From: Exiguobacterium acetylicum
GTDB taxonomy: Bacteria; Bacillota; Bacilli; Exiguobacteriales; Exiguobacteriaceae
Direction: 5' to 3'
Assembly: GCF_022170825.1 (NCBI RefSeq)
Contig: NZ_CP081878.1
Coordinates: 1,142,001-1,206,000, forward strand
DNA: 64,000 nt
Positions 12,381 to 22,310 of this stretch are shown here, in pieces (within the stretch, counting starts at the first letter, position 1; the number at the start of each line of letters is the position of its first letter). Under the pieces are notes generated by a model. That model did not search any database. It saw nothing but the letters and a program-made list of their open reading frames with translations, and had not been told where the DNA came from. Position numbers and translations under genes: made by a program.

Positions 12381-14133
12381 TATCAATGAAAAAGCCGTCC
12401 TGAAACGATTGCTTGATTTCGTCAAACCGTTTAAGAAGCAAGTCAGTATCGCCTTCGTTCTCCTGTTCATCACGACAGCAGCAAAACTTGGAGGACCGTA
12501 TCTCGTCAAAATTTTCATCGATGAGTATGTTGCACCAGGGACGTATCCAGTTCAAGAAGTCGCACTCTTGTTTACAGCTTACTTGTTACTGCATACGACA
12601 GGGATCATCGTTGATTATTTGCAGGCATTCGAGTTCCAAAAGATTGCCTTACAAGTCATTCAGCGTTTACGCATCGATGTGTTCCGGCACGTCATGCATT
12701 TACGGCTCGCTTATTTCGACCGGACGCCTGCTGGGGTACTCGTTTCCCGGATCACGAACGATACGGAAGCAATCAAAGAACTCTATATCGGTGTTCTGTC
12801 GACTTTCGTTCAAAGTGGGGTTCAGTTGATTGGAACGTATATCTTCCTCTATCTACTAGAGCCGCGACTTGCAACGATTGCGTTACTGTTGTTACCGCTG
12901 TTTTATTTCATCATTTGGATTTACCGAAAGTACTCAACGAAATATTACGCGGAAGTCCGCGATTTACTGTCGAAAATCAATGCCCAACTGAACGAATCGA
13001 TCAACGGGATGGCGATCATCCAACAATTCCGCCAAGAAAAGCGCTTAATGGCAGAATTCGAAGAGACGAACGTCGCTCACCAGAACGGTCGCTATAAGAA
13101 CTTGAAGCTCGATAGTTGGTTACTACGACCAATCATTGAATTGTTACTAGCGATCTCGATTGCGACACTCGTGACGTATTTCGGTATCTTATCGTTCTCG
13201 CAAACAGTTCAAGTCGGTGTCGTCTATGCCTTCATCAGTTACATGGAACGGATCTTCCAACCGGTTCAGCAAATCATGCAACGGTTGTCCGAGTTCCAAC
13301 AAGCTGTCGTCTCAGCAGACCGAGTGTTCAAGGTACTTGATACGGATGAGCCAGAGCCGACGAAACAACTCGAAGGGGACGCACGTGTATCAGAAGGACA
13401 TATCGTCTTTGAAGACGTTCGTTTTAGTTATGACGGGGAAAAAGACGTCTTGAAAGGCATTTCGTTCGAGGCGAAAAAAGGACAGACGATAGCCCTTGTC
13501 GGTCATACCGGAAGCGGAAAGAGTTCGATCATCAATATCTTGATGCGCTTTTATGCCTATCAATCGGGTCGGATTTTAATCGATGGTCAACCGCTCGAAC
13601 AATTATCGGAAGAAGAGCTACGGCAGCATGTCGGGCTCGTGCTGCAAGATTCGTTCTTATTCACGGGTACAGTCGCTGACAATATTCGATTATTCGATAG
13701 CTCGATCTCCTTTGATCGTGTTGAGGCGGCAGCAAAATTCGTCCAAGCCGATGGGTTCATCAATCAACTCGATCAGCAATATGACAGTCCCGTTGCGGAG
13801 CGGGGTGCCACATTCTCAGCTGGGGAACGTCAGTTGATTTCCTTTGCACGCACGATGGCACGGGATCCGAAAATCCTGATTCTCGATGAAGCGACGAGTT
13901 CGATTGATACGGAGACAGAGGAGAAAGTGCAAGTGGCACTTGAACGGATGCGTCAAGGACGGACGACGATTGCTATTGCGCACCGTCTATCGACGATTCA
14001 AGATGCTGATTTGATCCTCGTATTACATCAAGGGGAAGTCATCGAACAAGGAAATCACCAAGAATTAATTGCGCAAGATGGTTTGTATAAGAAGATGTAT
14101 CAGTTACAATCCGGTCATGTCACCGTTTCTTAA
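12370..14133 (+). CDS. heterodimeric ABC exporter, catalytic subunit (BmrD/YheH-like)
   Basis: A 587-residue partner of the preceding subunit. The membrane domain spans about 1-320; the nucleotide-binding domain has Walker A GHTGSGKSS, signature FSAGERQ (an unusual form in place of LSGGQ) and Walker B LILDEATSS with the catalytic Glu intact. With the partner's normal signature and defective Walker B, the dimer should have one working and one silent ATP site. The protein is shorter than B. subtilis BmrD (about 673), lacking its extra segment. Translation is probably coupled through the 11-base overlap. Confidence 0.9.
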   Translation: MNHDINEKAVLKRLLDFVKPFKKQVSIAFVLLFITTAAKLGGPYLVKIFIDEYVAPGTYPVQEVALLFTAYLLLHTTGIIVDYLQAFEFQKIALQVIQRLRIDVFRHVMHLRLAYFDRTPAGVLVSRITNDTEAIKELYIGVLSTFVQSGVQLIGTYIFLYLLEPRLATIALLLLPLFYFIIWIYRKYSTKYYAEVRDLLSKINAQLNESINGMAIIQQFRQEKRLMAEFEETNVAHQNGRYKNLKLDSWLLRPIIELLLAISIATLVTYFGILSFSQTVQVGVVYAFISYMERIFQPVQQIMQRLSEFQQAVVSADRVFKVLDTDEPEPTKQLEGDARVSEGHIVFEDVRFSYDGEKDVLKGISFEAKKGQTIALVGHTGSGKSSIINILMRFYAYQSGRILIDGQPLEQLSEEELRQHVGLVLQDSFLFTGTVADNIRLFDSSISFDRVEAAAKFVQADGFINQLDQQYDSPVAERGATFSAGERQLISFARTMARDPKILILDEATSSIDTETEEKVQVALERMRQGRTTIAIAHRLSTIQDADLILVLHQGEVIEQGNHQELIAQDGLYKKMYQLQSGHVTVS

Positions 14134-18432: not shown

Positions 18433-19737
18433 TCAGGAAATATGAAGTCGAATGATCTCGTCATGCAGTTCAACCTGTCCACCGATTGGGAATGTGAACA
18501 GGGGACTCGTATGTCCGAAATCAACATTTGCAAGGACTGGTACGTGCTCTAGGAATGGATAGAGCGAGATCAGATAACGCAGATGCTCTTCCGTCATTTT
18601 CGTTGCGAGCTGGAACCGTCCGAAGACGATACCACGAATTGTTTCGGCACCCGGTTGTGCCATCAACGAGGCAAAATCACGGGCGAACGTCGCTGGGTGG
18701 ACTTCGTAATCGTCTTCAAGGAATAAAATTGTATCCCGTAAATCAGGGAAGTGCTTCGTGCCTTGTAGGAGATTCAATGTACAAAGGTTCCCGCCAAGTA
18801 GCCGACCGCTTGCTTGCCCAGAGGATAAAAGAATCGGACCTTTGTTCGGTAATGTGATGACATGTCCACGATCGGTATCACGCCAATGGACCGAAGGCTT
18901 GATTGTAACGGGATCCGTTCCAAACAACACTTGTTTGAAGTAATCGATCGTATAGGCATCACGATCACGGAAAGCCCGTAACATGGGTCCGGAGTACGTC
19001 ACTAATCCGGTATTCGTCAGAATAGCATGACTGAGCGCTGTGATATCGGAGAAGCCACAAAGAATCTTCGGATGTGTCCGAATTAGTTCGTAGTCGAGTA
19101 GATCGACAAGTTCATTCGTACTGAACCCACCACGAACGCACAGGATCGCATCAACATTCGGATCAGCGAACGCGGCATGAAGATCTGCAACCCGTAACTC
19201 AGGATCACTTGAACCGAACGGATTGGCAGCACGTGCATGTTGGCTGATCGAGACGCGTAAGCCGAACGATTCGAGCGTCTGAATTGCACCGTCAATGATC
19301 TTCATCTCGACCGTCGAGAGGCTCGAAGCAGGTGCGACTAGGCGGATATGCGAACCATCCGTCAATTTGTTCGGTGTTAACGTCGGCAATTGAGCGGCAA
19401 TGATTTCTAAACGGTTACCGAACGGATCGGCGGTGAAGAAACGACGACGCGGCGCAAGGCGGGCGTCGTGTTCGACTGGATATCCGGCTGCTTGGAGCCG
19501 ATCACTTAACGCTTCAAATGCAGCGACGGTTAATCCGGGATGCGCTTTTTTAGCAGGAGAGAACGGGTCCTCAATACCAAGGTGAATCGCTGCACTGTGA
19601 TCTTCGAACCAGACACCCCCACTTGCTTGAACACCAGTAGGCTTTTCGACTTCCTTCATATGTAAAAGCCCGGCATAAAATGCACGGGCGCGATCTTCTT
19701 CGTTTTTCGGCATAGCGAGCTGGACATGATCTAACAT
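18433..19737 (-). CDS. fusion of a VOC/glyoxalase domain with an S66 LD-carboxypeptidase (LdcA/MccF-like)
   Basis: A 434-residue protein with two domains. Residues 1-117 form a VOC (glyoxalase-fold) module: LDHVQLAMPK at the start, AIHLGIE with His52, and DPFGNRLEII with Glu111, which are possible metal ligands. Residues about 128-434 form an S66 serine peptidase: GFSD with Ser230, RLLGGNL (oxyanion region), FLEDDYE with Glu341 and FGHTSP with His409 keep the Ser-Glu-His triad. S66 enzymes cut LD bonds in wall peptides, or inactivate microcin C-like peptidyl nucleotides. The ATG at 19735-19737 follows AAAGGAAGTG. One uninterrupted frame, so this is a true fusion rather than an overlap. Confidence 0.88.
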   Translation of the reverse strand: MLDHVQLAMPKNEEDRARAFYAGLLHMKEVEKPTGVQASGGVWFEDHSAAIHLGIEDPFSPAKKAHPGLTVAAFEALSDRLQAAGYPVEHDARLAPRRRFFTADPFGNRLEIIAAQLPTLTPNKLTDGSHIRLVAPASSLSTVEMKIIDGAIQTLESFGLRVSISQHARAANPFGSSDPELRVADLHAAFADPNVDAILCVRGGFSTNELVDLLDYELIRTHPKILCGFSDITALSHAILTNTGLVTYSGPMLRAFRDRDAYTIDYFKQVLFGTDPVTIKPSVHWRDTDRGHVITLPNKGPILLSSGQASGRLLGGNLCTLNLLQGTKHFPDLRDTILFLEDDYEVHPATFARDFASLMAQPGAETIRGIVFGRFQLATKMTEEHLRYLISLYPFLEHVPVLANVDFGHTSPLFTFPIGGQVELHDEIIRLHIS

Positions 19738-19763
19738 GAAGACACTTCCTTTACGAATTAGAT

Positions 19764-20777
19764 TCAAGCAACGAATTGTGTGATGCGTTTCAGTTCACGC
19801 TCGACGAGGTTCAAATAGAAGACACCTTCGATTCGACGATCGAGTGACTGCGCGATCTCATATAAGTTCGTTCGGAGCGCTGCAAGATACGACGCTTCCT
19901 CACCCAGGGATTGCCGATGAGCGAATGCATAGTGAGCGAGTAGAAACTGGAGATACCCACGGTCGGTCAAGAATGGAATCAACTGTTTTTTCTCTTCCAT
20001 CGACCACGTGTAGTTCGTATCGTAGTACATCTTCGCGTATAGATGATAGGGCTCGTCGCCACCTGTAAAGAGCGATTCACCACGTTTGACTTCTTCAATC
20101 AAACGTTCACTCCAGTCAAAGCGTTCTTTTTTCCGACTAAGAAATAGCGGAAGGATATATGGATGTGCCTGATCGGGCATCCGTGAACAACCGCGTTCAT
20201 GACGAAGTGCTGCATACAGAAGCAGGGCACGATCTTCGAATCCGCGCTCGATGGCATAGGTCATGCGACTGAAGGCTTCGCAAGATGGGCAGTCACTGAG
20301 TTCGTCGCTTGGCGCATCGACCCATTCCGATAGATAGTGATCGGCCTGTTCCTCGTCACCGAGTTTGCTATAGACCATGAAGCTAATATAGTCGCGCGTC
20401 CGAATAAAGCCGTGCGCGTCACAGAAGTCGATGAAACGATCGAGATCTTCTTCGAGGAGCGAAACCGTCACATCTTCTTGTTCTGCCATATAGATCAAAT
20501 AGGACTTATAGTTCCAGTACAAATCAAGTTCTTGTTTTGGAGTCAGTGTCATCTCGTCTTTACGAATCCATTCCATCAAAAGCGTAAAGGACACGAGAAA
20601 CGACCGGAAGTGTCCTAAATCAAATTGATTTTGTGAAAACGTCCATAAGGAGAGGAAGCGGAGTGAATCATCAGCTGTTTCCTCAAAGACGGCCCATAAG
20701 GCCTCACCGCGTGCAACGGAGGGTTCTTCTTCCTTTAAGCGAAGATATAAGAGATGGAGTTCTTCTTGAGGGTTCAT
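19764..20777 (-). CDS. hypothetical helical-repeat protein (337 aa)
   Basis: A cytosolic, strongly helical protein with no family I can name. Acidic and aromatic-rich helices repeat along its length (LWTFSQNQFDLGHFRSFL, DLYWNYKSYLIYMAEQED, LLLYAALRHERGC), reminiscent of TPR-type solenoids but without a DNA-binding domain. The ATG at 20775-20777 follows AAGGAGGGG; the frame upstream crosses the terminator of the next gene. The VOC-S66 fusion starts 26 bases after its stop, so the two very probably form an operon and may act together. Confidence 0.75.
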   Translation of the reverse strand: MNPQEELHLLYLRLKEEEPSVARGEALWAVFEETADDSLRFLSLWTFSQNQFDLGHFRSFLVSFTLLMEWIRKDEMTLTPKQELDLYWNYKSYLIYMAEQEDVTVSLLEEDLDRFIDFCDAHGFIRTRDYISFMVYSKLGDEEQADHYLSEWVDAPSDELSDCPSCEAFSRMTYAIERGFEDRALLLYAALRHERGCSRMPDQAHPYILPLFLSRKKERFDWSERLIEEVKRGESLFTGGDEPYHLYAKMYYDTNYTWSMEEKKQLIPFLTDRGYLQFLLAHYAFAHRQSLGEEASYLAALRTNLYEIAQSLDRRIEGVFYLNLVERELKRITQFVA

Positions 20778-20848
20778 CTGTACCCCTCCTTTCTTATATA
20801 AGTATACCACGAGCGTTTTGAGAAATCGCAATTGAGCAAGGACGGAAT

Positions 20849-20888
20849 AAAAAAAGATTCCGAACCCGCTCAATCGCGGTTCGGAATC
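20849..20888 (-). terminator. terminator overlapping the end of the Rrf2-like gene
   Basis: GATTCCGAACC (856-866) pairs perfectly with GGTTCGGAATC (878-888), followed on the minus strand by seven T. The stem includes the last codons and stop of the regulator gene. Confidence 0.9.
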
Positions 20889-21310
20889 ATTTCAAGTATT
20901 TGTGGATGAGTGTCAGCTGTCGGATGTAGCAAATCATGTACTGTGTAACTATTGAGTACTTGATGGAACGCCGCAATGGCATCATCGAAAGCATCACGTG
21001 CCGGATTGAGCGAAGGGACCTCGTGAATGCCTTCTTGCGGATCGAGAAAATGAACGGTTGGTTCAAACAGTTGTACGACGTCACCGATATGAATTGCATC
21101 TGGAGGACCAGCTAATCGGAATCCACCTCCACGACCACGAACAGAATCAATCAAACCACTCTGTCCTAAACGATAGACTACTTTCATCAAATGATTTTTA
21201 GAAATGTCGTAACAATCCGCTACTTCCTGGATTCGGACTAAACGATCGGGATGGGCTGCTGCGAAGAGCAGAGACCGGATCGCATAATCCGTATAACGTG
21301 TCATGCGCAT
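20870..21310 (-). CDS. Rrf2 family regulator, NsrR-like but lacking the cluster cysteines
   Basis: A 146-residue winged-helix regulator that follows B. subtilis NsrR closely: MRMTRYTDYA at the start (with Asp8, a cluster ligand in NsrR), SKNHLMKVVYRLGQ as recognition helix, RGRGGGFRLA as wing. NsrR senses nitric oxide with a 4Fe-4S cluster held by three cysteines. At the matching places this protein has Phe88, His96 and Asn102, and its only Cys (Cys33) is in the DNA-binding part. It therefore should not bind the usual cluster. It diverges from a flavohaemoglobin-like gene, the classic NsrR target. Several start codons are clustered; 21310 matches the family N-terminus. Confidence 0.9.
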   Translation of the reverse strand: MRMTRYTDYAIRSLLFAAAHPDRLVRIQEVADCYDISKNHLMKVVYRLGQSGLIDSVRGRGGGFRLAGPPDAIHIGDVVQLFEPTVHFLDPQEGIHEVPSLNPARDAFDDAIAAFHQVLNSYTVHDLLHPTADTHPQILEMIPNRD

Positions 21311-21360
21311 TTTCATCACCTACTTAACACACATACTAGGGGGGGACGCAAGCTTTTACA

Positions 21361-21426
21361 AATCTCAATGTGCAAAAAATAAGATGCATTTTACAGATTG
21401 TTTTTAAGAAGGAATTATCGGATAAT
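21361..21426 (+). promoter_or_regulatory. promoter and dyad operator upstream of the flavohaemoglobin-like gene
   Basis: -35 TTGTTT (21398-21403), 17-base spacer, -10 GATAAT (21421-21426). An imperfect dyad, AATCTCAATGTGCA at 21361-21374 and TGCATTTTACAGATT at 21385-21399, reaches into the -35. It contains AAGATGCATTT (21381-21391), which equals the NsrR half-site consensus known from enterobacteria. Elements are seen; use by the neighbouring regulator is inference. Confidence 0.6.
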
Positions 21427-21450
21427 GAACGGTGAAAGGTAGGTTAAATT

Positions 21451-22248
21451 ATGCATTTCGATCAGGCATTACACCTTTTGCAACAGCTCGGTCCTTCGAT
21501 GGAGCAAAAGGGATTGCGGATCGCGACGCGCTTCTATGACTCGCTTGAGGCGACGTATGAAGAAGAACTGCGCGCGCTTCGGGAAGCGGGGGCTCAGGAC
21601 GGGACTCGTGCCTTACGGATTTTGCGCCTGAGCCAATTACTGAACCAGATTACCAATCAGCACGAATCGAGCGAACTGTTTAAATTGATTTTGATAAACG
21701 AAATCGATCAGACGAAATCGTTTCTGTTGACGTATCCGGACATTATCAGCTATGAGATTCTAAAAGCCATCCAGATCGAATATGCACTCGCAGACGATGC
21801 ACCGCTTCTACAAGCTTGGCGCATCGTCCATCACCAACTCGTCGATACGTGTCGACACTTCTGTAAGTATCGTCAGGTCGGAAACTGGCGACAGCAGGAT
21901 ATCTTGTTGATTGCAGAAGACCATCATATTGGTGCCGTCATTGATGAAGCACGCCATGCACTTCTTAGTGGTCGAAAGACGACGTTACTTCACGTCTCAG
22001 CTGAAACACTAGCAGAGCAGATGCTAGCGAATGTCGTATCCTTGACGACGAAAGGAATGGTTCTTCATCAAATCCAACAAACTGGCTGGGAGCTACAGAT
22101 GCACGAGTTCCTGACGATGATTACAGCAAATGATCCGATCGTCTTCGTCAGTGGATCGACGAATTTCATTGCAGAAATTCAGCAACGACTCGATCCGTTA
22201 CCAGTCTTGTTCGGTCCGTTCGTAGCGGCAAATCAATTACCATCTTAA
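21451..22248 (+). CDS. flavohaemoglobin-like protein without haem ligands and without an FAD domain
   Basis: A 265-residue protein whose first ~135 residues align by eye with the globin domain of Hmp: GPSMEQKGLRIATRFYDSL matches the Hmp helix with Tyr29 (TyrB10) kept. But the near-invariant PheCD1 falls on Arg44, and the proximal haem His (E. coli His85) falls on Thr88. The ~105-residue FAD-binding barrel of Hmp is missing. The last ~120 residues look like the Hmp NAD domain (ILLIAEDHHIGAVIDEA in place of the GVGxTP loop, IVFVSGS, final LFGPF). Hmp detoxifies nitric oxide and has about 400 residues; this protein cannot do that chemistry as read. The frame is intact with AAAGGTAGG before the ATG, so it is expressed rather than a pseudogene. 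Hand alignment; homology is inferred. Confidence 0.7.
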   Translation: MHFDQALHLLQQLGPSMEQKGLRIATRFYDSLEATYEEELRALREAGAQDGTRALRILRLSQLLNQITNQHESSELFKLILINEIDQTKSFLLTYPDIISYEILKAIQIEYALADDAPLLQAWRIVHHQLVDTCRHFCKYRQVGNWRQQDILLIAEDHHIGAVIDEARHALLSGRKTTLLHVSAETLAEQMLANVVSLTTKGMVLHQIQQTGWELQMHEFLTMITANDPIVFVSGSTNFIAEIQQRLDPLPVLFGPFVAANQLPS

Positions 22249-22253
22249 CGAGA

Positions 22254-22310
22254 AAAGCGACGTGTAACGCTCTGACTGAAGTCGGGGCGCTACACATCGC
22301 TTTTTTTAGC
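22254..22310 (+). terminator. terminator of the flavohaemoglobin-like gene
   Basis: A long hairpin, AGCGACGTGTAACGC... pairing with ...GCGCTACACATCGCT (some mismatches), followed by seven T. It can also serve the converging MFS gene. Confidence 0.8.

Follow-up and report, generated by a model that had tools for sequence, protein, structure and literature searches.

The window analysed here is a 64,000-nucleotide stretch of the Exiguobacterium acetylicum genome (assembly GCF_022170825.1, contig NZ_CP081878.1, positions 1,142,001 to 1,206,000), and it holds two intact, mutually facing genes: a predicted repressor related to the nitric oxide (NO) sensor NsrR, and a target gene whose product resembles a pared-down flavohaemoglobin (Hmp). 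A first-pass annotation, made from the sequence alone, had proposed an old NO-response module whose regulator and target have each lost their cofactor residues, and the frames it reported were confirmed at the coordinates given below. A GTG at 21319, upstream of the ATG, offers an alternative regulator start that would yield 149 amino acids (aa). The features on which the argument rests, described with reference to the flavin adenine dinucleotide (FAD)- and nicotinamide adenine dinucleotide (NAD)-binding domains of Hmp, are as follows.

20870-21310, minus strand: regulator, 146 aa from ATG; predicted NsrR-lineage Rrf2 repressor with no cluster cysteines, and with Asp8, Arg12 and an invariant Cys33
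21451-22248, plus strand: target, a predicted 265-aa pseudo-flavohaemoglobin with a globin domain and a degenerate NAD domain, FAD domain absent
21451-21873, plus strand: globin-like domain of the target, residues 1-141; haem ligand gone, Tyr29 and Trp123 retained, His127 and Cys134 invariant
21895-22227, plus strand: degenerate NAD-domain fold of the target, residues 149-259; ExHHxG stands in place of the GGxGxTP loop and SG(S/T) in place of CGP
21379-21405, plus strand: predicted NsrR/hmp-type operator ATAAGATGCATTTTACAGATTGTTTTT, from matrix scan and pattern comparison
21398-21426, plus strand: predicted target promoter TTGTTT-17-GATAAT, read from the sequence, its -35 hexamer overlapped by the operator
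21433-21443, plus strand: target ribosome-binding site region TGAAAGGTAGG, read from the sequence and conserved across relatives

The regulator lacks NsrR cluster ligands

The regulator is a clear member of the Rrf2 family, scoring 102.3 bits against PF02082 (cut-off 30; E 2.9e-29) and 104.6 bits against TIGR00738 (cut-off 73.3). Its top named subfamily is NsrR (NF008240), where it scores 95.3 bits and the cut-off is 182, in a comparison that carried no Bacilli NsrR control scores; because this lies under the cut-off, we describe the protein as NsrR-similar and do not call it NsrR. According to PMC5411485, the iron-sulphur (Fe-S) cluster of Streptomyces coelicolor NsrR is bound by Cys93, Cys99 and Cys105, with Asp8 as fourth ligand, and Asp8 and Arg12 connect the cluster to the DNA-reading helix. 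Alignment bore out the initial reading that the three cysteines are missing and Asp8 is kept: 18 of the 19 pair regulators have no cysteine there, Exiguobacterium flavidum having one nearby (EGCEE), and both Asp8 and Arg12 are retained in all 19.

The closest relatives of the regulator are Cys-free Exiguobacterium paralogues (L113:9538-9948, minus strand; L114:5432-5923 and 13384-13785, plus strand), at 53-57% identity, as against 48-50% for sister-genus NsrR. A tree of 54 rows, built without an outgroup since CymR had dropped out, placed the Cys-free pair regulators and paralogues in one group (100/100) apart from all Cys-bearing NsrRs, with the paralogues nested within the pair regulators (open fork, 91/77). 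The sequences point to a branch of the NsrR lineage that would carry no cluster. It shares with NsrR its ancestry, Asp8, Arg12, an hmp-derived neighbour and an hmp-type operator at the -35 hexamer, whereas the absence of the three cysteines, the new invariant Cys33 and its place among Cys-free paralogues set it apart. In the window's genome, the paralogue is opposed by a histidine kinase of 770 aa (HisKA, HATPase_c), and on its other side lies a 142-aa protein with no Pfam match.

The target derives from flavohaemoglobin

A sequence search of the PDB with the target returned Vitreoscilla haemoglobin (E 0.012, residues 4-132). Profile comparison with hhalign was more decisive: the N-terminal half matched the Hmp globin domain only (97.3%) and the C-terminal half the Hmp NAD domain only (96.7%), while shuffled whole-profile controls reached 1.5% at most, ruling out a chance likeness to globins. 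Neither half matched the FAD-binding barrel, which the first-pass annotation had also judged missing, and at 265 aa the chain falls 114 aa short of the 379-aa Hmp of the same genome. An AlphaFold model of the 265-residue protein, a check suggested at the outset, agrees with Hmp-derived globin and NAD folds, and its globin part retains the general Hmp shape. Taken by sequence and model, the target is a derivative of flavohaemoglobin from which the FAD domain has gone. A globin tree sampling 11 of 32 family members and 29 of 46 Hmps separated the family by a branch of great length (3.14 changes per column on one side of the midpoint root and 3.24 on the other), and is therefore silent on which Hmp gave rise to it.

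To follow individual residues we compared 32 target-family sequences with 46 Hmps in which the compared cofactor residues are invariant; in Hmp, roles are assigned to the residues at positions B10, CD1, E7, F8 and H23. The target has a globin and then an NAD domain in the Hmp order, and keeps Tyr29, as first noted, and Trp123 in all 32 sequences, together with Gly21. Gln E7 is replaced by Arg or Ala, Lys84 by Gln, and Glu H23 by Cys, Tyr or Ser in every family member, and Phe CD1 is lost in 28 (Leu in 15, Ile in 7, Met in 6) and still Phe in 4; here the alignment corrects the earlier assignment of CD1 to Arg44, placing it at Leu43. The haem-ligating His F8 aligns in MAFFT with Thr88, as originally read (Thr in 28 sequences, Asn in 3, Ser in 1), while an ungapped reading of residues 21-96 puts the invariant Ile85 there; the register is uncertain in the central part of the globin alignment, and in neither reading does any of the 32 sequences offer a His. 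The NAD loop GGxGxTP, reported at first as altered, is broken throughout (ExHHxG in 29, ExEN in three E. flavidum-like members), its first and third glycines gone in all 32 and the second still Gly in 8, and the CGP motif reads SG(S/T). It seems fairly safe to infer that NO dioxygenase chemistry has been lost.

His127 and Cys134 are invariant in the family (32 of 32 each) where Hmp has Tyr126 and Phe133 (46 of 46 each), positions that we take to face or line the haem pocket, and the pocket may thus hold new content.

An hmp-type operator lies between the genes

We built an operator matrix from 25 hmp regions, excluding the pair regions; all but two of the 25 (L135 and L144) reach an alignment score of at least 23. 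The best matrix site fell at the corresponding place in all 19 pair regions, at a distance of 59-60 bases from the start of the regulator (78 bases in E. flavidum). The scores were 9.6-22.3, where shuffled sequences averaged -3.0 to -5.4, and at most one of 200 shuffles reached these scores in each case. A CATAAT or GATAAT follows 3' of the operator in 18 of the 19, and sister-genus hmp promoters, read by eye, have the same operator and promoter layout. In the first 150 bases of three paralogue regions, the best sites were within the shuffled range in two and scored 7.0 in the third, which 4 of 200 shuffles reached. The site form of the pair occurs once in the genome at three or fewer mismatches, compared with three matches for a reversed control pattern, so the regulator is likely to act as a dedicated local repressor. 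We consider it fairly safe that the regulator would bind 21379-21405, over the -35 hexamer, and so repress the target.

The ribosome sites had been called good, and that of the target is indeed conserved. The promoter and terminators proposed at the outset fared less evenly: TTGTTT-17-GATAAT can be read in the sequence and stable hairpins fold, but a simple scan returned one promoter and two terminator matches, no excess over shuffles (means 2.8 and 1.5), and missed this favoured promoter.

Distribution, origin and selection

The pair is present and divergent in 19 of 19 Exiguobacterium genomes and occurs in none of 18 sister-genus genomes and none of 24 further genomes, which extends to related genomes a pairing first noticed in one. 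All named relatives are Exiguobacterium, and 10 loci include E. indicum, E. sibiricum, E. antarcticum, E. undae and E. flavidum. The nearest sister-genus relative of the regulator (48-50% identity) is divergent from an hmp gene in every one of the 18 genomes; each of the 11 sister-genus regulators read has three cysteines and the 11 sister-genus Hmps read keep their cofactor residues, both proteins having been read in 7 genomes. At 17 further loci from the class (three of them the genus's own true NsrR) every regulator carries three cysteines, and hmp lies inside the fetched stretch at 11. Rodionov et al. (PMC1274295) report that nsrR and hmp are clustered in most Bacillus and Streptomyces and that candidate sites stand before hmp only.

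A full-length Hmp is also present in all 19 genus genomes, and all 14 of those sampled contain, beyond the pair regulator, an NsrR-type match at 47-51% to the sister-genus protein (cysteines read in G000, G006, G010 and G007). In the window's genome, where a normal hmp had been sought elsewhere, the true 379-aa Hmp (L112:9601-10740, minus strand) and a Cys-bearing NsrR (L115:9845-10312, minus strand) lie far apart, and NO defence is thus covered away from the pair. In E. flavidum (G007, L108) the true nsrR and hmp still form a divergent pair, located in an mnh/odh region. At that place the window's genome has nsrR but no hmp, from which it seems that hmp has moved. Positional descent of the pair from the sister genus was considered and set aside: the neighbouring major facilitator superfamily (MFS) transporter is present in the three sister-genus genomes searched, and the pair is not beside it in the two regions read, so a shared ancestral position was not seen.

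Both genes evolve under purifying selection. The ratio of nonsynonymous to synonymous substitution rates (dN/dS) was 0.037-0.112 for the target (median 0.068) and 0-0.287 for the regulator (median 0.10), compared with 0.060-0.120 (median 0.081) for true Hmp in the same genomes. These are simple Nei-Gojobori counts over 12 chosen genome pairs of 171, E. flavidum in none, with dS up to 1.4 in one pair and medians taken as midpoints of the two middle values. Pseudogene status was rejected on these ratios. Both frames are open in all 19 genomes at identities down to 40%, with no frameshifts seen in the 19.

A probable repurposed NO-response divergon

The sister-genus divergons, the operator and promoter layout, the domain homology, the paired ligand losses and the purifying selection all uphold the proposal of an old NO-response module stripped of cofactor residues in both partners, and we hold with high confidence that the pair originated from an NO-response divergon. 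It has very probably taken on another job: the suggestion that it was turned to a new signal follows reasonably from the presence of a true Hmp and a Cys-bearing NsrR in the same genome. The annotation's more specific picture, a haem-free globin that binds a ligand together with a repressor independent of metal, is conjectural. Taken together, the divergent linkage, shared operator, ligand losses, selection and true NO module elsewhere argue for an nsrR-hmp divergon repurposed, or exapted, as a unit, an account that we favour on balance. Conservation of nsrR-hmp as a unit of NO defence is wide, and a copy of this kind throughout a genus offers a clean natural test of whole-module reuse: known folds and a known module are reused together without their chemistry, sensor and enzyme having lost their cofactors jointly while remaining linked and selected and retaining an operator of the ancestral type.

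Several observations weigh against this account. A profile search, recommended for both proteins, placed the regulator in Rrf2 and gave no Pfam or NCBIfam match to the target up to E 10, although hhalign recovers its globin and NAD domains; pseudo-flavohaemoglobin is thus a protein family that no model of either collection covers. Foldseek alone (without VIA-align) gave weak results for the target, nothing at E 1e-3 or better, with unrelated eIF2B rows ranking level with flavohaemoglobin 6o0a. The operator matrix was seeded with a site from the sister genus, picked by eye after the pair region had been seen, and the window's own site, ATAAGATGCATTTTACAGATTGTTTTT, scores 10.3, close to the bottom of the 19. 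Its right half is weak, so that the site first described as a dyad operator with an NsrR-like half site is NsrR-like, and 'dyad' is generous. Streptomyces apo-NsrR does not bind DNA, according to PMC5411485, and a cluster-free repressor must therefore have changed. Finally, the Cys-free paralogues have no pseudo-flavohaemoglobin neighbour, which indicates that this type of regulator does not require such a partner.

How might such a unit work? In our account, an ancestral NsrR gene, its facing flavohaemoglobin gene and their operator stayed together. Meanwhile the ligands of the Fe-S cluster disappeared from NsrR, and the haem ligand, the entire FAD domain and the NAD loop from the flavohaemoglobin. 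The repressor would then no longer sense NO through a cluster; the target, stripped of catalysis, would bind a small ligand in its vacated pockets and sense something else; and the ligand-bound target would act back on its own repressor in the manner of CysK and CymR, a protein partner replacing the Fe-S cluster as signal input. This role for the target, as a sensor of a ligand that has no catalysis of its own and works as partner to the repressor of its gene, is a tentative proposal drawn by analogy, though the likeliest of the circuit readings considered. More speculative by a little is the whole picture in which the circuit swapped a cofactor for its own former target, with repressor, operator and target exapted as a single divergon.

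Known systems offer partial parallels. The Rrf2 repressor CymR, which has no cofactor, relies on CysK as its sensor partner (PMC9239247), providing a possible mode in which a cluster-free Rrf2 repressor is controlled by a protein partner. CysK differs from the target in being an active enzyme. Moreover, cysK is not known to be encoded divergently from cymR. Globin folds are employed without haem in signalling by RsbR, Bacillus anthracis pXO1-118 and the MabR N-domain (PMC11617747), and the target likewise has the fold and no haem ligand. In our pair, by contrast, a pseudo NAD domain follows the globin and an NsrR-type repressor faces the target. None of those three sensors is known to be a flavohaemoglobin derivative. 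RsrR of Streptomyces venezuelae is, as described in PMC5015018, an NsrR homologue that left the NO response, as proposed for the window's regulator, yet it keeps a redox-active [2Fe-2S] cluster, where the window's regulator lacks a Cys at each of the positions that supply the NsrR ligands. Among the open-licence literature matches listed, none described a flavohaemoglobin lacking both FAD domain and haem ligand, nor the pair.

We also considered whether the repressor is a thiol switch, sensing oxidants or electrophiles through Cys33, with the target a plain effector carrying a new thiol or metal site at His127 and Cys134 in the former haem pocket. Cys33, close to the helix-turn-helix, is invariant in all 19 pair regulators and is Gln in all 11 sister-genus NsrRs read; the Rrf2 repressor HypR senses hypochlorous acid by a Cys33-Cys99' disulfide (PMC10715087), and its Cys33 may correspond to the one here. 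The family-wide replacement of Hmp Tyr126 and Phe133, which would face the haem, by His and Cys would also fit, but in 18 of the 19 pair regulators Cys33 is the sole cysteine available for a disulfide between subunits (E. flavidum has its EGCEE cysteine). We regard the thiol switch as a serious minority possibility, trailing the partner proposal slightly. It is improbable that the target is instead a regulatory subunit or decoy of the cell's true flavohaemoglobin, its level merely set by the repressor: the full-length Hmp in every genus genome and the Hmp-like shape of the globin part would suit this, but hmp is located away from the pair in both genomes read (G000 and G007). We doubt still more that the globin part binds haem from helix H, through His127 or Cys134, in place of helix F, since despite those two invariant residues none of the 32 family members keeps Gln E7, Lys84, His F8 or Glu H23, each of which all 46 Hmps have, and most have also lost Phe CD1. 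Decay of both genes into functionless relics, of which simultaneous loss of all cofactor residues is the first expected effect, is very improbable given the open frames, the low dN/dS medians and the conserved operator and ribosome site.

Flanking features

Hairpins that are long and stable by folding energy, computed without a shuffle control, lie 3' of both genes, so that the unit, each gene ending in a terminator-like structure, appears self-contained.

20848-20888, minus strand: terminator-like hairpin and T run at the regulator 3' end, -22.5 kcal/mol (66-base stretch folded)
22254-22307, either strand: terminator-like hairpin 3' of the target, usable bidirectionally, -34.8 and -31.9 kcal/mol

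Of 16 target-family proteins, five bear a name given by a source, in each case 'hypothetical protein'. Beyond the regulator, window positions 19764-20777 (minus strand) encode a 337-aa protein with no Pfam match that adjoins the regulator in G000, G007 and G009 alike, and 18433-19767 (minus strand) an LD-carboxypeptidase (Peptidase_S66) fused with a VOC/glyoxalase domain. In E. sibiricum (G009), a transposase-like open reading frame, named by its first residues alone, lies between the pair and the MFS gene (L109:11737-12918, plus strand).
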